A DNA stretch of 64,000 bases from Paraglaciecola hydrolytica (GTDB taxonomy: Bacteria; Pseudomonadota; Gammaproteobacteria; Enterobacterales; Alteromonadaceae): the NCBI RefSeq assembly GCF_001565895.1, contig NZ_LSNE01000005.1:758665-822664 (forward strand), given 5' to 3'. The notes beneath the pieces were generated by a model. It had not been told where the DNA came from, made no database searches, and saw nothing but the letters and a program-made list of their open reading frames with translations. Position numbers and translations under genes: made by a program. Within the stretch, counting starts at the first letter, position 1. Every line of letters begins with the position of its first letter. Shown piece by piece: positions 45,283 to 56,762 of the stretch.

Positions 45283-47505
45283 ATGACCGACACAGATCCC
45301 CTTCAAGATAAGCTCATGCAAATTCACCAGATTTTGGCGGTACATCCGTCATTGATGGATGCCTATCATAAACTTGAGCCTTTTATCCTGAACCTATTTG
45401 ATGCTGAACGTATGAGTATCTTTCAGCGTCGTCGGCAACATCAAGATTTAGTAGCCCGGTTTAAAACCGGTAAAGAAACTAAAGAAATCAAAGTACCAAT
45501 CAGTCCACTATCTATTGCCGGTTATGTGGCACTGAGCCAAAGTCCCTTATTGATCAACGACCCTTATAATCAGCAAGAACTGGCGGGCATTCACCCACGT
45601 TTAAAGTTTGCCGACAAATTTGATAAAACCTCCACCTTTAAAACCCGCAATATTATTTGCATTCCCATCCTTGATTCAGGGGTTTTGATGGGCGTCATGC
45701 AGATCATTAATAAAAAAGAAGGGGTGTTTGAACAGGACGATCTTGATCTCGCCAATACTGTTGCCGATATTATGGGCAAAAAATTTCGGTATGAATTAGG
45801 TGGCACTAGTCAGCCATTTGAATATCTAGTGCATCGCAAACTGCTCAGTGAAGATCAACTCAACAAATTAACTGAAGGCAGCAGTGATAATCGTCAGCTT
45901 ATCCAACGATTAACCTCCGAATACCGCATTCCAGATGAAGAACTTGGTAACGCGTTATCAGTGCATTACCAAGTGCCGTTTTTGCCATACCTGCCCGATA
46001 AATATCATATGTTTCAAAGTGAGAGCCGCTTAAATCTCTCTTATTTGAAACGTAATTTTGTCGCGGTATTAGCAGACGTAGCAGACAACCCCATTGTATT
46101 GATGGCCGAGCCCAACAACGCCACCTTGTTAATGGAAATCGAAAGCGCCTTAGGTATAGACAGCTACGAAATATCAGTGAGCTTGCCCAGTATAGTGCTG
46201 CAATATCTCGGAGAAGCAGTAGGTGGCGCTGGCCCTGGCGCGATGGATGAAATCCTTGACGAGATTGGTTCAAGTGCTGATGAGTTAGACGAGCATACTG
46301 ATGAAATGTCTGACGATGCACCAGCGGTTGTGCGTTTGGTCAGCCGCGTATTACATGATGCTAAACGCCTCAATGCTTCAGATATTCACGTCGACCCTGA
46401 AAAAAATGCGCCCACTCGGGTGCGTATGCGTATAGATGGTGTATGTCGCGACATCACTCAAGTGCCTGCTTCCCATCATAGTGCAGTGATTGCCCGCATT
46501 AAGATAATGTCCAACCTGAACATTGCTGAAAAACGTGTACCTCAGGATGGTAAATTGTCGTTTCGCATGAACGGCCAACTCATAGAGGTGCGGGTTGCGA
46601 CCATCCCCACTGTGGCCGGTGAAGGCGTAGTTATGCGTATACTAGCCTCAGGCGGCGCTCTGCCAATTGGTAAAATGAATTTATCGCCAAATAATTACGC
46701 CACGATCGAAACCATGGTCAAAAAACCTCATGGTATTCTGCTAGTAGTAGGGCCGACAGGTTCGGGTAAAACCACTACCTTGCATGCCATACTCGGTCAT
46801 ATTAACACCCCCGAGAAAAAAATCTGGACGGCAGAAGATCCAGTAGAAATAACCCAGGCCGGACTACAACAAGTTCAAGTCAGCCCCAAAATTGGTTTTA
46901 CCTTTGCTAATGCGTTGCGCGCCTTTTTACGGGCCGACCCAGACATCATTCTAATTGGTGAAATGCGCGATAAAGAAACCGCCCATGCCGGTATTGAGGC
47001 TTCGCTAACCGGTCACTTAGTGTTTTCGACCTTGCATACCAATTCAGCGCCAGAAACCATTACCCGTCTGTTAGATTTAGGTATGGATCCGGTTAACTTT
47101 TCGGATGCTTGTGTAGGCATACTCGCGCAACGTTTAGTGCGCACCATTTGTGGTAACTGCAAAGAAAAGTACCCTGCCAGCGAAGTAGACATTGGATTTA
47201 TCAAACGTCAATACGGCGAGGCCTACCTTGCAGAACTCAAGCTACCAGAAACCATTATGCTGCACCGTGGCAAAGGTTGTGACGAGTGTGGTAATACTGG
47301 CTACCGAGGCCGTACCGGGGTGCATGAGTTGTTGTCGATGACATCAGAATTACGCACGCTAGTTTATAAAGAAGCTTCGGTACATGAGATGAAAGCCCAA
47401 GCCATGAAAGACGGCATGCGCACTCTTACTCAAGATGGCATATTAAAAGTGCTGAAAGGTGATACTGACATCGCGCAGGTACAGATTATTAGTGGTTTGG
47501 CGTAG
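45283..47505 (+). CDS. GspE/PilB-family secretion ATPase with N-terminal GAF domain
   Basis: 740 residues. GAF domain about 20-175 (RNIICIPILDSGVLMGVMQIINKKEGVFEQDDLDLANTVA), then an MshEN-like segment about 195-310, then the GspE ATPase: Walker A GPTGSGKTT near 490, Asp box AEDPVE, Walker B IILIGEMRDKETA, HLVFSTLHTN His box. A zinc-binding pair CGNCKEKYP and CDECGNTGYRGRTG is near 622-672. Such ATPases power type II secretion or type IV pilus assembly, but no gsp or pil genes are next to it, so it is an orphan. The GAF domain suggests allosteric control by a small ligand. Confidence 0.9.
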   Translation: MTDTDPLQDKLMQIHQILAVHPSLMDAYHKLEPFILNLFDAERMSIFQRRRQHQDLVARFKTGKETKEIKVPISPLSIAGYVALSQSPLLINDPYNQQELAGIHPRLKFADKFDKTSTFKTRNIICIPILDSGVLMGVMQIINKKEGVFEQDDLDLANTVADIMGKKFRYELGGTSQPFEYLVHRKLLSEDQLNKLTEGSSDNRQLIQRLTSEYRIPDEELGNALSVHYQVPFLPYLPDKYHMFQSESRLNLSYLKRNFVAVLADVADNPIVLMAEPNNATLLMEIESALGIDSYEISVSLPSIVLQYLGEAVGGAGPGAMDEILDEIGSSADELDEHTDEMSDDAPAVVRLVSRVLHDAKRLNASDIHVDPEKNAPTRVRMRIDGVCRDITQVPASHHSAVIARIKIMSNLNIAEKRVPQDGKLSFRMNGQLIEVRVATIPTVAGEGVVMRILASGGALPIGKMNLSPNNYATIETMVKKPHGILLVVGPTGSGKTTTLHAILGHINTPEKKIWTAEDPVEITQAGLQQVQVSPKIGFTFANALRAFLRADPDIILIGEMRDKETAHAGIEASLTGHLVFSTLHTNSAPETITRLLDLGMDPVNFSDACVGILAQRLVRTICGNCKEKYPASEVDIGFIKRQYGEAYLAELKLPETIMLHRGKGCDECGNTGYRGRTGVHELLSMTSELRTLVYKEASVHEMKAQAMKDGMRTLTQDGILKVLKGDTDIAQVQIISGLA

Positions 47506-47606
47506 GTTTATCGCTAAAGACGGCTGGGAATAAACAGGGTCGAATCGAAGTGTTATCGCTATAGTGTCCCGATTGTAGATTTAAATTTAAAGTATATCTG
47601 ACCTTT

Positions 47607-50600
47607 TTATTCTGAACTCTCTGCCAATTGCTTGTTAATTTTTATCACAAGTCCAACCATGGCTTGATGAAATTGATTGAGTTGTTCAGTAAAGTCTTGG
47701 GTGTTTGTTTGTTTTTTATTGTAGATAATTAATTCTATTGATTTTGCCAGTTTAGCTATGTTGAATGCACCAATATACGTCAAAGCTGGGAGAACATCGT
47801 GGGTAATTCCGTAAATGCCTTGATAATCCTTATTCTCGATAAGAGTGCCCAATGTATTGATAGTGGGCTCCTTCACAACAAAGTCTTTTAACATACTGGT
47901 AAAAGTTTCTTCGTCTATAAAACGCTTTTGCATGGCTTGTTGTTGATCCATGATCAACAGGGTTTCTATAGGATTTGTGGCTAACGGTTCCTCAGTGGGT
48001 AGCGCAGTTACTGGTGAACTTGGGGTTAACGCCTGCGAACTCGTCAGTAAAATTTCTGCTATTACCTGATAAAAATACTCTGGGTCGATGGGTTTATTAA
48101 TATGGGCGGTCATGCCCACATCGATGCTTTTTTGTATATCCAGTTTCATGGCGTTGGCAGTCATGGCGATTATGGGGATTGTGCAATTCAATTCATTGCG
48201 CAAAGTTGAGGTAGCGGTTAAACCATCCATTTCTGGCATCTGTACGTCCATCAAAATGCAATCAAAAGCGACTTGATTTTTAAAAGCCTCGATCACTTCT
48301 CTACCATTTTCAGCTAAGACAACCTGGGCGTTAGTGTATTTCAAGAAGCCCAATGCCACTTTTTGATTTAACTTGTTATCTTCAGCTAACAAAATACGTT
48401 TCCCGCTTAAGTCAGGTACTGTTTTCATTTCTGTAAAGCTGATGGATGCATTTGCTTTTATATTAAAGACGACTTCCTGTAATTTATTAATTAATTCACT
48501 TGCGCTAAAAGGTTTTTCGATAAAATGTTTGATACCAAGTTGTTTAGCTGCTTGACGCATATGCGAAAAGTCAAAAGCTGACAGCATGATGATTTTTGGT
48601 TTATTGGCTTTAAATTCTTGATTAATTATCGCGGCGACTTCTAAGCCATCAATATCTGGCATTTTCCAGTCTAATATCAATAACTCATAAGGCTGATGTT
48701 CTGCTGCTGCATAGCGCAACTTGTTTAAGGTCTGTTGACCACCATTGGCTAGATCTGGAGTGATATTGGCATTCAATAAAGCGTCGGCTATTACCTGGCG
48801 CGATAAATAAACATCGTCGGCCACTAATACTTTAAGGCCGGATAATTGTTTTGATGGTGAACTAATGTGCTGATTTTTATCTTCTTGAACTGGCACTGTG
48901 AAATAGAAGGTGGAACCTTGACCTAGTTTGCTTTCAATCCAAATTTTGCCTTGCATTAACTCAACAAGTTGTTTGCAGATGGCAAGCCCTAAGCCGGTGC
49001 CGCCATATTTACGAGAAATCGATTCGTCAACTTGTGCAAACGACTCAAATAGTCCATCAATTTGATTTTGCGAAAGACCAATGCCTGAGTCTGTAACCGC
49101 AAACTCAAGCAACAGCCCTTGCTCAGTCTCTTTATTTTTAACGGTTACCGATACCAACCCTTCATCGGTAAACTTGACAGCATTACTGAGTAAATTGATC
49201 AATATTTGCTGGATGCGCATGCCATCACCTTGCAAAAATAACGGCACATCTCTGGCGATATGTTGAATAAGCTCAATATTTTTTTCGTGAGCTTTTATGG
49301 ATTGTAGACGAATAGACTGACTGATTACCTTATCTAACTGGAAACTGGTTGATTCTATGTCGAGTTTGCCAGCTTCAATCTTTGAGAAGTCTAAAATATC
49401 ATTGATAACGCCTAATAACGAAATGGAGGCTTCGTCGATTTGGCGTAAATTGGTGATGTCTTCAGGTTTGTCGGCAGATCTTTGCATCAATTTGGTTAAG
49501 CCAGAAATTGCATTGATTGGGGTACGAATTTCGTGGCTCATTCGAGCGAGAAAATCCGACTTGGCTTGAGTGGCTTGTTTGAGTTCTATTGAATAACGAT
49601 TAAGTTGTGTTCGTTGTCTACGGGTCCGAATTAACAGTGCCAGCACTAATAGCAGGGCGACCAGTATTGTCAGGATAATAACCACTTGATAACGAATATT
49701 TTGTTGTTGTATCAGGTTACTTTGTAGCTGTAGTTCATTTTCTTTTTGTAATAACTTAATCGCTTTATCTTTTTCAAACACATTAAGTCGCACATTATTT
49801 ATTCCCAGCATTTGTGCTTGTTTCTGATTAAAACTCTGTTGGTATAATGTGTTGTATTGTTTTAAAAAGCCAAGTTGAGCGCTTTCGTTATCCGTTAATT
49901 CTGTAAGTTCAATGAGTCTTTCTAAAATTTGTAAAAATTGAATTTTATCTTTCTTAAGGGCATCCTGATTAACGCCTTTTTTCAGCTCGCTTATCGCTAA
50001 TTCAATATCACCCTGCGATCGGTAAATCTCTGCAAGCAGCAACAATCGAGGCACTTCATTATATAAAAAGCCCACCTTTCTATCAGCCTCTATAGATTGG
50101 CTTATTCTTTTTAATGCCGCATCAACATTACCCTGTGTTTGGTTTACCTCAGCTATTGAATAATAAATAATGCCGATAAAAGGGTAGTTAATGTCAGTTA
50201 ATATTTTTTCTGCCAGGCTAAAATTGACTGCTGCATCTCGGGGGTTGGCTAATCTAGTTTGCGCCAGTGCAATGCGATAATATGCCAGCCCTTCATGGAT
50301 TTTATCATTATATTCTTGCGCTACAGCCAGCATTCTATATGCGTTTTGCAGCATGGCTGGATAGTTTTTTAGCGAAGAATAAACATTGGATAATGAGCTA
50401 TAGACACCCAACACCTTGCTACTTTGTAAGCCATCATAGAGTGCAAACGCATTGTTTAATGCCTCTAATGCCGCACCGTATTCTCCTATAGTATCTAATA
50501 CGGCGCCCTCGATTCGAAAGGACTCTGCTAGCTGGTATTCATTGTTTGAAATATCTGCCTTAGTTCGAGCCAGTAACAACTTTTCATAGGCAGTTTCTAA

Positions 50601-50870
50601 TTCTTGCTTTAATAAATGAGCGTAGGCCCAAATATTCAAAAAGATACTTTCATTATAAGGATCAGCAGTGTTTGAAAAATAAGTTTGAAAATAGTCTATT
50701 TGGACTGGACCATCTGCTGCATTGTTTTGAACTAGTATTCTTAAGGATTCAAGTTGTTCTTCAACTCCTTGATTGGTTGCAGCATAACTAGTACCCGAAA
50801 AAAAACAGCAAGCTAAAAAGCTGCTCAAAATAGCAGCTTTTATGGTGTTTTTAAACTTAGCTGAACCCAT
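47607..50870 (-). CDS. Hybrid sensor histidine kinase with TPR-like sensor, two receiver domains and HPt-like domain
   Basis: 1087 residues. Signal peptide (about 1-30); TPR-like helical repeats about 40-370 facing the periplasm; one TM helix about 395-420; HisKA FLARMSHEIRTPINAISG near 440; HATPase with GTGLGLAICKQLVELMQG; receiver 1 from about 680 (VLVADDVYLSRQV, phospho-Asp in LILDWKMPDIDGLE); receiver 2 from about 825 (ILLAEDNKLNQKVA, CILMDVQMPEMDG); HPt-like end with THDVLPALTYIGAFN (His near 1023). All phosphorelay residues are present. Its ATG is 3 nt after the stop of the borosin precursor gene, so it is translationally coupled to it. The sensor may detect the peptide or its export; inferred. 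Confidence 0.9.
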   Translation of the reverse strand: MGSAKFKNTIKAAILSSFLACCFFSGTSYAATNQGVEEQLESLRILVQNNAADGPVQIDYFQTYFSNTADPYNESIFLNIWAYAHLLKQELETAYEKLLLARTKADISNNEYQLAESFRIEGAVLDTIGEYGAALEALNNAFALYDGLQSSKVLGVYSSLSNVYSSLKNYPAMLQNAYRMLAVAQEYNDKIHEGLAYYRIALAQTRLANPRDAAVNFSLAEKILTDINYPFIGIIYYSIAEVNQTQGNVDAALKRISQSIEADRKVGFLYNEVPRLLLLAEIYRSQGDIELAISELKKGVNQDALKKDKIQFLQILERLIELTELTDNESAQLGFLKQYNTLYQQSFNQKQAQMLGINNVRLNVFEKDKAIKLLQKENELQLQSNLIQQQNIRYQVVIILTILVALLLVLALLIRTRRQRTQLNRYSIELKQATQAKSDFLARMSHEIRTPINAISGLTKLMQRSADKPEDITNLRQIDEASISLLGVINDILDFSKIEAGKLDIESTSFQLDKVISQSIRLQSIKAHEKNIELIQHIARDVPLFLQGDGMRIQQILINLLSNAVKFTDEGLVSVTVKNKETEQGLLLEFAVTDSGIGLSQNQIDGLFESFAQVDESISRKYGGTGLGLAICKQLVELMQGKIWIESKLGQGSTFYFTVPVQEDKNQHISSPSKQLSGLKVLVADDVYLSRQVIADALLNANITPDLANGGQQTLNKLRYAAAEHQPYELLILDWKMPDIDGLEVAAIINQEFKANKPKIIMLSAFDFSHMRQAAKQLGIKHFIEKPFSASELINKLQEVVFNIKANASISFTEMKTVPDLSGKRILLAEDNKLNQKVALGFLKYTNAQVVLAENGREVIEAFKNQVAFDCILMDVQMPEMDGLTATSTLRNELNCTIPIIAMTANAMKLDIQKSIDVGMTAHINKPIDPEYFYQVIAEILLTSSQALTPSSPVTALPTEEPLATNPIETLLIMDQQQAMQKRFIDEETFTSMLKDFVVKEPTINTLGTLIENKDYQGIYGITHDVLPALTYIGAFNIAKLAKSIELIIYNKKQTNTQDFTEQLNQFHQAMVGLVIKINKQLAESSE

Positions 50871-50873
50871 GGA

Positions 50874-51077
50874 TTAGTACGAGTGAACCTTAGGATCACT
50901 GCCTAAATTTTCAAATTGTTTTTGCACTGCATCCCAATCTTTATTCTTTATTAATGCGACATCGTCATTAGCTAAGCCGTATTTTTCAGCCGTCGCTACT
51001 GGGTTTTTTAAGTAGGCTTCTTTAAGTTCAGCATTACTATCGAGTTCTTCTAAAAAATCAGCGAGAGATTTTGCCAT
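50874..51077 (-). CDS. Split-borosin precursor peptide (SonA-like)
   Basis: 67-residue small acidic protein. Residues 4-48 (SLADFLEEL, AELKEAYLKNPVATAEKYGL, DDVALIKNKDWDAV) match the helical borosin-binding leader of SonA from Shewanella oneidensis, including the L-DF---L----L---Y--NP-----YGL pattern, a LigA/Nif11-like fold. The C-terminal tail NLGSDPKVHSY would be the core presented to the methyltransferase; Val64 is the only aliphatic residue near the end, and the chain ends with Tyr67. It lies 44 nt after the methyltransferase gene and 3 nt before the kinase gene. Upstream AGAAGGAAT gives a good ribosome site. Family call rests on pattern and gene pairing. Confidence 0.85.
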   Translation of the reverse strand: MAKSLADFLEELDSNAELKEAYLKNPVATAEKYGLANDDVALIKNKDWDAVQKQFENLGSDPKVHSY

Positions 51078-51121
51078 TTCATTATTCCTTCTAGGTTATT
51101 AATGTAAGTACAGTTTTAATG

Positions 51122-51940
51122 TTAAGTTTTACGGTAATTGATGACCTGTTCTTGAGTTAATCCAAGTTTTGTTAAACGCCCCGTATGATAATCCGGTAAA
51201 CCAAGTGAAGGCACAACTAAGGTTGAAATCAGAGTAGGTTTGCAATTGGCTAATTCACATAATGGGAAACGTTGAATTTTTGGGCCATACAATGGCATGG
51301 TTGCCGCTTCATACAAAATGATTTCGTGCGTAGCGGGATACAATTCCATTAACACTTCTTGATAAAGTATTAAGCCAACTTTGCAGTGATCAGCATTTAA
51401 CATACCTAAGGTCGCTTCCCCTGCCAAGCCAATTTGCCAGATGATCTGAGTCATATGTGGGTCGAGAGTATAATCGCGAAATAAAAACTGGGTGGCTTCA
51501 TAAGACTGACAGCCAAACGCAGCGGGATCGATACCTAAGTCAGCGACCAAACAATCTTCAGCAGAAATACCAGGCAACATTTCTGCGCGTAAACCTAATG
51601 CTCGCACTTGTTTTATTGCTGCATGGGAAGGGTTAACAAACACACCTGGGTGGCCATAAAATGCTGCACATACTTTTTGCCCAGCTATCACTGCATCAAC
51701 AATTCTGTCTGTCATTTGTTGGTAAGTGACAGCTCGCGATTTACCTTGTGTGTATAGGTCATTAAGTTCGACTGTATTGGGGTTAACTTTTTTAACCACA
51801 TTTTCACCGACTTTGTTGCTAATGCCGATAAACACAATATCTGCATTTTCAATAACACTCCGTGTTAACAAAGTCATTTGACCTGCAACACTGATACCAG
51901 TGCCCACCACGACTAATGAGCCTTCTTGCTTGGTCAGCAT
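51122..51940 (-). CDS. Split-borosin peptide backbone alpha-N-methyltransferase (SonM-like)
   Basis: 272-residue TP-methylase (tetrapyrrole methylase fold, PF00590) enzyme. SLVVVGTGISVAGQMTLLTR start, AAFYGHPGVFVNPSH (95-105) and LPGISAEDCLVADLGIDPAAFG (122-143) are close to SonM. Tyr63, Arg69 and Tyr73 in DLYTQGKSRAVTYQQM have the same spacing as the catalytic Tyr66/Arg72/Tyr76 recalled for OphMA. It lacks features of cobalamin or siroheme methylases and is far from such genes. Expected to add SAM-derived methyl groups to backbone amides of the adjacent precursor in trans. First gene of a three-gene operon; AAGGAC is just before the ATG. Confidence 0.9.
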   Translation of the reverse strand: MLTKQEGSLVVVGTGISVAGQMTLLTRSVIENADIVFIGISNKVGENVVKKVNPNTVELNDLYTQGKSRAVTYQQMTDRIVDAVIAGQKVCAAFYGHPGVFVNPSHAAIKQVRALGLRAEMLPGISAEDCLVADLGIDPAAFGCQSYEATQFLFRDYTLDPHMTQIIWQIGLAGEATLGMLNADHCKVGLILYQEVLMELYPATHEIILYEAATMPLYGPKIQRFPLCELANCKPTLISTLVVPSLGLPDYHTGRLTKLGLTQEQVINYRKT

Positions 51941-52284
51941 ACAGTCCTTGTTCCTTTATTTTTATTCTACCTAACAATACCAGTACAATTTTGCCAAGGC
52001 TAGCTTGTTTGAATTTTTAATAGGTATTTTTTTGCCCCTGAGAATTGCTTAAAAATCAACTGAAATTAAAAATGACTGATGGGCTTTAAAAACCAATAAC
52101 AGCAAAGAATAAATAGAAACAATAAAAAGACACAGGCCTAATAAATCACAACTAACCTGCTGGACAACAAGTCGGTTAAAGCACCTATTTTTCAAGATAC
52201 ATCAACTCGACCTGCCTGCAGCATTACAGTAAAGTGCGGGGTGTAGTGTTGTATAAAATCAAAAATATAAAGACAGGAACAACT
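51941..52284. other. Divergent intergenic region, borosin operon / amidohydrolase
   Basis: 344 bp, AT-rich, between the start of the borosin operon (-) and of the amidohydrolase gene (+). TATAAAAT at about 52251-52258 is a possible -10 element for the + gene. No clear operator repeat or riboswitch is recognised. Both promoters should be here. Confidence 0.5.
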
Positions 52285-55200
52285 ATGTATAAATTATCCA
52301 AAAACGCGTTTAGCGTTGTGGCGTTATGTGCTGCGACGTTTTGCAGCCAATATTCCATCGCAGCAGAAGAAGAAAAAGCTGACAAGCCCAAGTGGGATGT
52401 ACTTAATCCCAAACTTCCTTTGCACAAGGTATCCATTGATACCGATCAAACTACCTGGTCAAGCTTAGACATTACCCCCGATGGCAAGACCATAGTGTTT
52501 GATATGTTAGGCGACCTCTACACCGTGCCAATTACTGGCGGCAAAGCCACGTCACTGACTCAAGATTTTGCTTGGAATATTCACCCTGCCGTTAGCCCAA
52601 GTGGTAAACAGTTAGCCTTTATTTCCGACCGTGGTGGTATTTCCAGTTTGTGGGTGATGAATATCGATGGCAGTGACCTAAAACAACTCAGCACTGAAAA
52701 AAACAATCTGATCCATTCACCTAAGTGGAGCCCTGATGGCGAATATATCGCGGTGACTAAAGGCATTATGTCGTCACGCAGTATCCCCGCAGGCGAAATT
52801 TGGCTTTATCATAAAAGTGGTGGAGATGGCCTAGCTTTAAAGGAGCGAGTAAACGGTAAAAAAGATCAAAAGAATATTGCTGATCCGGCGTTTTCGCCAG
52901 ACGGTAAATATGTCTATTTCACCCAAGATGTCACTGGCGGCAGTACTTTTAGCTATAACCGCGATCCACTCAAAGGCATATTTGCCATAAGTCGTTATGA
53001 AATGGCTAATGGTGAAGAAGAAACTTATGTAAGTGGAACAGGTGGTGCAGTGGTTCCAACGCCATCACCAGATGGTAAAAAACTGGCTTTTATACGCCGC
53101 GTCAGAGAAAAGACCGCACTGTTTATCAAAGAATTAGACAGTGGTATCGAATCCCCTATTTACCTTGAACTCGAACACGATATGCAGGAAGGTTTTGGCT
53201 CTGAGGGCTATTTTGCTTATTTTGACTGGACACCTGATTCTAAAGAAATCGTGTTTTGGACGGCCGGTAAGTTCCACAAAATCAATGTAGCTAGCCAAGC
53301 TGTCAGTAATATTCCGGTACAAGTACAGGCCGAGTTGCAGTATGCCGACGCCTTACGTTTTGATGTCGATGTGGCGCCAGATACCTTTAAGATCAAAATG
53401 GCACGTTGGACACAAAAATCTCCCGATGGAAAATCCCTGTTATTTCAGGCGCTGGGTAAACTTTACATCAAAGATATCAAGTCAGGCAAAATCGCGCGTT
53501 TGACTAAACAAAATGAATATGACGAGCTTTATCCCCGTTACTCCAATGATGGAAAATCTATTGTTTATACCACCTGGAATGACCAAAAATTGGGTAGTAT
53601 ACGTACCATCAGTGCTAAAGGTGGCAAAGATACCCAACTAACTAAAACTCCGGGTCATTACATCGAACCAAGTTTTTCCACTGATGGCAAACTCATTACT
53701 TATAAGAAAATCACCGGCGGTTATTTACTCAGCCCTGATTATTCGGTTGAGCCCGGCATCTATGTCTTAGATATTAAAACCGGCGACAGTAAACGTGTTA
53801 GCCAATCTGGTTCAGCCCCGCAGTTTGCCGGAGATAACAGCCGTGTTTATATCACCACGTCAGTACCTGGCAGCAGTTATCCTGAATCTCAGTTAATAAG
53901 CGTGGATTTAAACGGCGAAGATAAACGTGAACATTTATATGGTGCGGACAACGTATCCGAATACCGCTTATCACCAGATAAAAAATGGTTAGCTTTTACC
54001 TATCAATACAATGCTTATGTAGTGCCTTTTGTCGATACCGGCAAACGAGTCAGTATTGGACCTAAAACCACCACACTGCCGGTCAAACAACTTTCTAGCC
54101 ATGCTGGCGAATACCTAAACTGGAGCGCCGATAGTCAATCCGTTAGCTGGTATCACGGCGCTACCTATTACGAACGTGAACTAAAAGATGCGTTTAGTTT
54201 TATCGACGGGGCTCCCGAAACCTTGCCTGAACCAGTAAAAGCAGGTATTTCAGTCAGTTTTGAGCAGCAAAGCGATAAACCCAGTGGTTATAAAGCTCTA
54301 GTGGGTGGCACGGTGGTTACTATGCGTAATGCTGATAAAGAACAAGAAATTATCGAAAACGCGGTGGTCTTGATCAAAGACAACATTATTGAAGCTGTGG
54401 GAAAAGTGGGTGAAGTGACTATCCCCAAAGGGAGTTTAGAAATTGACACCACAGGCCTCACTATCCTCCCCGGTTTAGTGGATACCCACGCTCATGGCGC
54501 ACAAGGTAGCAACGAAATCATCCCCCAACAAAACTGGAGCATGTACTCTAATGTGGCGTTTGGTGTGACCACTATTCACGACCCATCTAACGATACTACA
54601 GAGATATTCTCGGCAGCTGAATTACAAAAAGCCGGCAAGATAGTTGCACCTCGTATCTATTCTACCGGTACTATTTTGTATGGTGCAGAGGCTTATGACT
54701 ACAAAGCGATTATCAACAATTACGAAGATGCGCTGTATCACGTAAAACGCTTGAAAGACACCGGTGCGATATCGGTAAAAAGCTACAATCAACCTGCTCG
54801 GTCAACCCGACAACAAATTCTTGCGGCAGCACGTGAATTACAAATGATGGTAGTACCTGAAGGTGGTGGTAAGTTCCAACAAAACGTGAGCATGATAGTG
54901 GATGGCCATACTGGTCTCGAACATTCCCTGCCCATTGCTAACGGCTATAACGATTTAACCACGCTTTGGGCCGCTACAGAGTTTGGCTACACGCCCACTT
55001 TTGTAGTGTCTTATGGCGGTATGATGGGCGAAGAGTATATGTATGATCGTAATGAAGTATGGAAGAACCCGCGTTTATTGCGTTATACCCCAAGCTTTTT
55101 GTTAGATGAACGCGCCATTGTCAGACCCACAGCACCAGACGAGCAATATAACCATCCCAATGTTGCCCGTTATGCCAAAGTACTACGTGAAAAAGGTGTT

Positions 55201-55622: not shown

Positions 55623-55648
55623 AAAGGCGCATTGATTGCGCCTTTTTT
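55623..55648 (+). terminator. Rho-independent terminator after the amidohydrolase gene
   Basis: AAAGGCGC (55623-55630) and GCGCCTTT (55638-55645), 7-nt loop, then TTTTT. Similar to the hairpin after dcp. Confidence 0.85.
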
Positions 55649-55745
55649 ATTACTTTTATACCTAGATAGGTTTTATGCTGTTGTTGAAGGGTCTAGACTG
55701 ACAACAAGCCTACAATCAACACATTGCAAATCGAGAATCTATTAT

Positions 55746-56762
55746 ATGCCTGATAATGACTTTGAAAGCTCCTTTGCTCATTTAAAACAAACCATTCCTT
55801 TATTACTCAAACACAAAGTTTCGGCTTTACCTATTAACTACGCCCTTTGGTATACCTATGTGGCTAATGGCTCGGCTGGATTAAAAAGTGCCATTGACCA
55901 CGCTATTCAAAATAAATTGCCTTTAACTGAGTCAAAAACCAAAGAACTGTATCGCCAACATTTGGCCGAAAACCAAGAAGTCACGGCCTGGGAGTTACGC
56001 CAGTCACTTGAGGCCATGTTAATTGAGTTATCTCAGTCCATATCTGATACCCGCAGCGAAACCACTAACTTTAAAGCCACCATGGATAATTGTGTTGATG
56101 ACTTAGTTAAGGTCGAAAAAGAAGGTTTATCCATCGAAGAAGTGATGTCACTGGTGCGTAACTTGGTGAAAGAAACCCAGAATATCCGCCGCAGCACCAT
56201 GAGTTTTAATTCCGCGCTTAGTGAAGCACAGCGAGAGATAGATGTATTACGTACGCAACTAGAACAAAGTCAACAAGAAGCACTCTACGATGCCCTAACC
56301 GGTTTGTGTAATCGTCGCTATTTTGATGAAGAACTGGCCAGCCATGCTATGCGTCCAGATTTGTTTCTATTGTTAGTTGATCTCGATCATTTTAAAAAGA
56401 TTAATGACAACTATGGCCATGTCATGGGTGACTTAGTGCTTAAAGCCACCGCCAAAAAACTACAAGCTTGTTGCCAAGACGGAACTCAAGCCTTTCGTTT
56501 TGGTGGTGAAGAATTTGCCATCATAATACCCAACAGTAATTTTTCTCGAGCGCGCAGTTTGGCGGAAACCATGCGCAAATCCATTGAGAAAATCAGTGTA
56601 AAAGACAAACGCAGTGGCGAGGTGTTGGGCGGTATCAGTGCCTCTATTGGTCTCGCTGAACTCAGAAAAGGCATGAACCCATTGGCATTAATAGAGCAGG
56701 CCGACAAACAGTTATACGAAGCCAAACGTTTAGGCCGCAATCGCGTAATGCCAATTTTGTAG
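55746..56762 (+). CDS. GGDEF-domain diguanylate cyclase
   Basis: 338 residues from ATG 55746; a longer in-frame start at 55632 would run through the terminator hairpin region and adds non-family sequence. The N-terminal about 165 residues form a helical sensory region (LPINYALWYTYVANGSAGLKSAIDHAI) with a coiled coil just before GGDEF. The catalytic domain has DALTGLCNRRYFDEEL, LDHFKKINDNYGHVMGD and the active GGEEF in FRFGGEEFAI. No RxxD inhibitory site precedes it. Makes cyclic-di-GMP from two GTP; cytoplasmic. It is followed by fusA2 but not clearly co-transcribed. Confidence 0.92.
   Translation: MPDNDFESSFAHLKQTIPLLLKHKVSALPINYALWYTYVANGSAGLKSAIDHAIQNKLPLTESKTKELYRQHLAENQEVTAWELRQSLEAMLIELSQSISDTRSETTNFKATMDNCVDDLVKVEKEGLSIEEVMSLVRNLVKETQNIRRSTMSFNSALSEAQREIDVLRTQLEQSQQEALYDALTGLCNRRYFDEELASHAMRPDLFLLLVDLDHFKKINDNYGHVMGDLVLKATAKKLQACCQDGTQAFRFGGEEFAIIIPNSNFSRARSLAETMRKSIEKISVKDKRSGEVLGGISASIGLAELRKGMNPLALIEQADKQLYEAKRLGRNRVMPIL

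Follow-up and report, generated by a model that had tools for sequence, protein, structure and literature searches.

Split borosin genes adjoining TPR-sensor signaling enzymes: a candidate peptide-signaling cassette in Paraglaciecola hydrolytica

A 64,000-nucleotide stretch of the Paraglaciecola hydrolytica genome (contig NZ_LSNE01000005.1, positions 758,665 to 822,664; hereafter, the window, whose own numbering is used for its features) contains a minus-strand operon of three genes that encode, in order, a SonM-like alpha-N-methyltransferase, a SonA-like borosin precursor and a hybrid histidine kinase with a tetratricopeptide repeat (TPR) sensor. On balance, we consider it probable that the three genes form a borosin peptide-signaling cassette with an exchangeable output. 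Across non-redundant SonM-family loci, a signaling enzyme adjoins the methyltransferase gene, by a fixed partner rule, in 107 of 123 cases (87%), namely, a GGDEF cyclase in 72, a histidine kinase in 23, a Ser/Thr kinase in 8 and a class III cyclase in 4. The original prediction, made from the letters of the window alone, coupled the borosin genes to a phosphorelay kinase; this link is real but was drawn too narrowly given that the most common partner is a TPR diguanylate cyclase.

The operon and its signaling partners

The methyltransferase gene (51122..51940, minus strand) encodes a 272-aa protein of the TP-methylase family (PF00590, 68.5 bits). SonM chains are its best PDB match (7ltc, E 1.5e-66, residues 7-264), followed by the fungal OphMA (E about 1e-50), in line with the predicted SonM-like enzyme; the identity to SonM, with the sequence taken from locus L156 of the survey described below, is 45%. 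The SonM match extends to residue 264, and there is no fused precursor. The SonM active-site residues probed by mutation in passages of PMC8429565, Y58, R67, Y71 and Y93, have counterparts in Y63, R69, Y73 and Y95, and each of the four is kept in 122 of the 123 loci. The next gene (50874..51077, minus strand) encodes a 67-aa protein with a borosin-binding-domain leader and a C-terminal core. Its leader matches SonA weakly in a single-sequence comparison (E 0.0015, residues 4-51), and the Pfam LigA match (E 4e-4) is below the family cut-off, so that the predicted SonA-like assignment is sustained by the gene position and by aligned relatives in the same slot. By sequence, the two genes are strongly supported as a split borosin pair of the kind described for SonM/SonA of Shewanella oneidensis in passages of PMC8429565. 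The third gene (47607..50870, minus strand) encodes the 1087-aa hybrid kinase, in which Pfam recognizes TPR, HisKA, HATPase_c and two REC stretches and which adjoins the methyltransferase and the precursor in relatives as well.

The open reading frame list bears out the predicted three minus-strand genes, with gaps of 44 nt between methyltransferase and precursor and 3 nt between precursor and kinase. The genes on both sides, named by eye as amidohydrolase-like (upstream) and GspE-like ATPase (downstream), are oppositely oriented, so that the operon consists of three genes; the arrangement is not a chance one because it is conserved across genera. As also predicted, no protease or exporter gene was recognized by eye in the open reading frame list of the window adjoining the operon; the same reading of the list showed no response regulator gene there. 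Scans of 47300-52300 gave 12 sigma-70 promoter candidates against 14.8 in shuffled sequences and 5 terminators against 3.7, that is, no clear excess of either, and a search of PHROGs with the methyltransferase and the precursor returned a single weak match, to an entry of unknown function. A gene for a GGDEF protein lies on the plus strand at 55632-56762, separated from the operon by 3.7 kb and a single intervening gene, and is not counted in the unit.

The survey comprised 141 stretches including the window; a methyltransferase was called in 140 (L072 was dropped), and 123 loci remained below 90% identity. Eighty of the loci were the best of one homology listing, and 60 more, rich in Alteromonadaceae and Shewanella, were hand-picked before partner labeling and hence are not random. 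Genes were called by a simple open reading frame script that is poor in GC-rich DNA, and a signaling enzyme counted as a partner if it was encoded on the same strand by one of the first two genes of 150 aa or more to either side, with labels assigned by phmmer. Where the stretch extends 4 kb or more in both directions, 95 of 105 loci have a partner. The rate of signaling enzymes drops to 9/608 at gene positions 3-5, and when other genes of the same stretches were taken as centers, with the borosin partner skipped, a signaling enzyme was found for 53 of 789 (7%). A prediction of at least 85% was written down before 40 held-out loci were labeled; all 40 have a partner, in each case GGDEF. These loci were taken in list order from the family of the window, some genomes twice, with G104 and G137 (in-frame stop) passed over, and in 14 of the 40 the methyltransferase shares 90% identity or more with that of an earlier locus. 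A within-set control of the held-out loci (18/62) was dropped since it could count the borosin partner itself, and is superseded by the 53/789 figure.

The model system shows the same arrangement: in L156 (genome G478), which matches SonM at 100% and is taken as sonMA of S. oneidensis MR-1, SonM and SonA are followed without a gap by a 596-aa TPR-GGDEF protein. SonM homologs without a recognized partner were also found on two contigs labeled Thermoplasmata archaeon (L069, L113), a label that may reflect a binning error.

Within a family sample of 395 Alteromonadaceae genomes, a SonM homolog (E up to 1e-10) is present in 170, and a match to the sensor of the window in 29; the sensor search scored at most four candidates per genome, so that sensors elsewhere in those genomes are possible. 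Methyltransferases at least 47% identical to that of the window occur at 30 places in 27 genomes, two of which carry a tandem methyltransferase pair. The sensor is present in 27/27 of these genomes and adjoins 29 of the 30 places; reciprocally, a methyltransferase adjoins 27 of the 29 sensors. Absence of the kinase from all related loci, which would have spoken against the predicted link, was thus not what we found: the kinase and the borosin genes occur jointly in Paraglaciecola, Alteromonas, Glaciecola and their relatives. Among the loci gathered, kinase partners are limited to this clade and two loci of one other genome. The two remaining sensors of the 29 are those of L179, described below, and L180 (7315-10943); in the latter, near an assembly gap, the precursor and the kinase are kept and only a remnant of the methyltransferase (residues 202-260) is left.

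A gene for a REC-GGDEF regulator follows the kinase gene in genomes G073 (Pfam check) and G116, and L134 (8619-15384) and L135 encode a tandem methyltransferase pair, the precursor, the kinase and then a REC-GGDEF response regulator. By way of such a regulator, the kinase form may also end in cyclic di-GMP (c-di-GMP); no REC-GGDEF gene adjoins the kinase gene in the window.

Sensor architecture and exchange of outputs

The kinase of the window can be divided into a TPR sensor domain (residues 31-395; 49686..50780, minus strand, as are all parts of this gene), a transmembrane helix (residues 396-414; 49629..49685; hydropathy 3.58), the HisKA and HATPase_c domains (residues 436-662; 48885..49565) with His446 as the likely phospho-accepting residue by motif position, and two receiver domains (about residues 680-800, with approximate limits, and 826-936; 48063..48833) with Asp734 and Asp875. 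Near the C-terminus, His1024 sits in a stretch that looks Hpt-like by eye, with no Pfam Hpt match up to E 0.1; this stretch is missing from the L047 kinase. Because an N-terminal hydrophobic segment precedes the sensor and the helix at 396-414 follows it, the sensor should lie in the periplasm; the N-terminal segment scores just below the threshold used (1.44 vs 1.5). The original prediction further proposed that the uncleaved precursor could serve as the ligand of the kinase; this does not fit a sensor predicted to be periplasmic and a precursor in which hydropathy analysis found no hydrophobic export segment.

An AlphaFold2 model of residues 28-400 (mean pLDDT 88.6) shows TPR-like helix pairs in a stack, with one long helix after them. 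Among solved structures, the closest folds are LGN and, on the bacterial side, the peptide receptors Rap and NprR; the alignment with the Rap-CSF complex (4gyo) spans 330 columns with a TM-score of 0.65-0.67. Solved bacterial TPR arrays are rich in Rap/NprR-type peptide receptors, so that this likeness is a hint and not proof. The model of the S. oneidensis cyclase (pLDDT 93.3) has a design like that of the sensor of the window plus a GGDEF domain; all 50 listed structural matches of this model have GGDEF domains and are uninformative on its sensor.

The two kinds of sensors are also related in sequence. Over their whole length, sensors of the kinase type can be aligned with those of the cyclase type (360 columns, E 2.8e-31), and when the genome of the window was searched with a profile built from 20 cyclase-type sensors, the window kinase was the top match (E 4.4e-24, the next match being at 8.6e-8). 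This wide margin argues for a shared sensor family beyond generic TPR likeness. The cysteine patterns of the two types are distinct: in the GGDEF sensors, C180 and C210 are kept in at least 90% of the rows and are located on neighboring helices of the S. oneidensis cyclase model, a placement that would suit a periplasmic disulfide; of the 23 kinase sensors, 19 lack cysteine altogether between residues 35 and 390.

Most partners, judged from their sequences, look like a signal peptide, a TPR array, a membrane helix and an output domain, with the sensor outside and the precursor inside. At a fixed threshold, an N-terminal hydrophobic segment together with a membrane helix near residue 400 was detected in 22 of the 23 kinases and 59 of the 72 GGDEF partners. 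A Pfam scan of 69 of the latter plus L156 (the odd-length L101, L130 and L163 were left out) found GGDEF in 70/70. The Ser/Thr kinase partners have a membrane helix at about residues 300-390 in 7/8 cases; five of the six scanned contain TPR, with the helix between the kinase and the TPR, which should thus face outward as well. Those with a membrane helix and a C-terminal TPR come from contigs labeled Acidobacteriota (L064, L065, L093, L104) and uncultured bacterium (L061). In the alphaproteobacterial L055, L056, L073 and L090, a class III cyclase-like gene lies between the precursor and methyltransferase genes; Pfam finds NB-ARC/AAA and TPR regions in the L055 protein.

In a methyltransferase tree, constructed by a quick method from 119 of the 123 loci (over-long or weak rows were dropped), the partner label, 'none' included, changes 12 times, compared to a mean of 44.7 for shuffled labels. 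A single clade (SH-aLRT 97) holds 21 kinase-linked rows; two others, which both belong to genome G048, are placed elsewhere, which suggests a second origin of the kinase form that the well-supported branches do not force. Four output types imply at least three exchanges in any tree; in this one, there are four among the partnered rows.

Precursors and candidate core peptides

By analogy of position with SonA, the proposed core of the window precursor is VHSY (residues 64-67; 50877..50888, minus strand), directly after Lys63. In all 16 precursors of the sub-clade of the window (methyltransferases about 68% identical or more), inspected by eye, Lys or Arg directly precedes the last four residues, and the four-residue tails include VHSY, VISY, VINY, VIHY and one NIRS, among others. 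More distant kinase-linked cores, IQISH, IRISH and LEISH, are close to the LVISH of SonA, in which Leu63 and Ile65 are methylated (passages of PMC8429565); other cores in the kinase-linked clade differ, for example, WVQHAK and MIMLEETY. Measured against the window, 19 of 20 rows show lower identity in the peptide core than in the leader, and 22 of 22 show lower identity in the sensor than in the kinase core, a pattern that we count in favor of the cassette proposed below. We tried co-variation of core and sensor as support for ligand specificity and rejected it: in partial Mantel tests on 21 loci, the core-sensor correlation (r 0.30) was accompanied by control pairs no weaker than that (core-kinase core, 0.42; leader-sensor, 0.34).

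A second precursor form was observed at 26 further GGDEF loci (L150, L124, L129, L077, L099 and others), with an LLEKLG-like start, a mid-chain hydrophobic patch, often with Cys, and an acidic tail. Genes for GNAT, M17 aminopeptidase or aspartyl protease adjoin cyclase-type borosin genes (L053, 6045-7935; L124, 7224-9139; L122, 8181-8723), with a possible role in tailoring or processing. A GNAT gene lies at most three genes away at 31 of the 72 GGDEF loci, 2 of the 16 partnerless loci and 0 of the 23 kinase loci, against a background of 3/622 in genes further off.

Interpretation, alternatives and known systems

The cassette that we propose would work as follows. The methyltransferase would bind the leader of the precursor and N-methylate the backbone of the last few residues (V-H-S-Y), and a cellular protease, perhaps cutting after Lys63, would free a short, protease-resistant peptide. 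The peptide would reach the periplasm either by passive crossing aided by N-methylation or through a general exporter; membrane permeability is among the properties conferred by backbone N-methylation (passages of PMC8429565), which could explain the missing exporter. In the periplasm, the peptide would bind the groove of the TPR sensor and alter autophosphorylation and the phosphorelay, which may run from His446 to a receiver, perhaps on to His1024, and then to a regulator. In the related cassettes, the enzyme driven by the TPR sensor would be a diguanylate cyclase, Ser/Thr kinase or class III cyclase; the peptide with its TPR sensor would thus be the constant part and the output exchangeable. 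Binding of the peptide to the sensor is what we infer from this arrangement; a released or exported peptide and an action on the cytosolic part of the kinase are both possible.

Several observations weigh against this proposal. No protease or exporter gene was recognized adjoining the operon, and the TPR-array likeness to Rap is generic. By the partner rule, 16 of the 123 loci have no partner, including L058, where a GGDEF gene is at position +3, and L062, where a Ser/Thr kinase is encoded on the opposite strand. In the Alteromonadaceae sample, one methyltransferase (G073:C85, locus L145, 49% identity) has no partner beside it, and L179 (6999-9854) encodes a kinase with neither a methyltransferase nor a precursor nearby, for which an orphan receptor or a listener to the peptides of others are candidate readings. 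The architecture of the partners is not uniform either: TPR_12 is detected at E 0.01 in only 44 of the 70 scanned GGDEF partners, with other TPR models in fewer; 7TMR-DISM is found in three partners, assigned to Wenzhouxiangella loci by their many hydrophobic segments; the Ser/Thr kinase partner of L107 has no TPR match; and the four class III cyclases are without a clear membrane helix. The Mantel correlations given above count against it as well.

The same observations can be read in other ways. The kinase or cyclase might sense some other stimulus and time the production of the borosin, which would then be an ordinary product (a metal binder, an antibiotic or other) and not a ligand. Regulators are indeed frequent in product clusters, and tailoring-like genes occur at some cyclase-type loci, such as the GNAT genes counted above, the M17 aminopeptidase of L053 and an amine oxidase in L063. 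This explanation appears unlikely to us, given that the type of output enzyme changes while the TPR sensor is usually kept, which would be odd for plain expression control; moreover, the operon has three genes with the regulator last, and no DNA-binding regulator was recognized adjoining it. Still less probable, in our assessment, is a methylated precursor that remains uncleaved in the cytosol and acts there, as a small regulatory protein, on the kinase or cyclase core. The lack of a recognized protease or export gene beside the operon, a precursor made up of a leader domain and a very short tail, and class III cyclase partners without a clear membrane helix would all suit such a protein; however, across outputs it is the outward TPR sensor that is most often retained and not the cytosolic enzyme, and, judging by its title, Crone 2023 concerns a bacterial borosin peptide natural product. 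Finally, the genome of the window is rich in signaling genes (65 GGDEF and 42 HisKA matches), which would favor an accident of gene order or hitch-hiking; against the excess over controls, the 40/40 held-out result and the reciprocal link in 395 genomes, this seems extremely improbable.

The closest described system is SonM/SonA, a type IV split borosin, which has, like the window, a separate methyltransferase and leader-plus-core precursor, the four active-site residues and a small operon. The differences are the TPR-GGDEF cyclase that follows in L156 instead of a hybrid kinase, and the SonA tail LVISHGNGD compared to VHSY in the window. The legend of Figure 1 of PMC11395268 names a GGDEF element in a borosin; going by this legend, that type resembles the window in having a signaling domain within a borosin architecture. 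The main text of PMC11395268 contains no kinase, TPR, tetratrico-, cyclase or c-di-GMP wording, and that of PMC8429565 has no relevant passage on kinase, regulation, operon or biofilm. GGDEF in a borosin architecture is thus already in print; the literature searched yielded neither the kinase form nor the general TPR-receptor rule, nor a stated role of borosin peptides, and Imani 2022, Cho 2022 and Crone 2023 may describe parts of these.

In the RRNPP systems (Rap, NprR, PlcR), a cytosolic TPR receptor is paired with a small peptide gene, and the exported propeptide is re-imported. The window shares the pairing of a putative TPR receptor with a small peptide gene, as well as the fold match to Rap-CSF, and differs in the membrane sensor with a predicted periplasmic TPR, the precursor without an export segment and the expected backbone N-methylation, so that it lacks both the cytosolic receptor and the exported propeptide that characterize that group. 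The HisKA, HATPase_c and receiver domains make the kinase a hybrid histidine kinase of the same general build as BarA and ArcB. BarA is its best NCBIfam match, although at 403.6 bits it is far below the cut-off of 890 bits, and the N-terminal half of the window kinase is a TPR sensor.

Beyond the window, it is possible, and we put it forward tentatively, that SonM-type split borosins constitute a broad class of peptide signals among bacteria, ribosomally made, N-methylated on the backbone, sensed by usually outward TPR receptors and with outputs swapped between lineages. Such peptides would be protease-resistant and might need no dedicated exporter to cross membranes, with outputs that would comprise a phosphorelay, c-di-GMP, Ser/Thr phosphorylation and a cyclic nucleotide. 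With a partner at most of the loci surveyed, the model SonM/SonA pair included, the purpose of borosins becomes directly testable by genetics; if the proposal is true, backbone-N-methylated ribosomal peptides would be a new class of bacterial signal.

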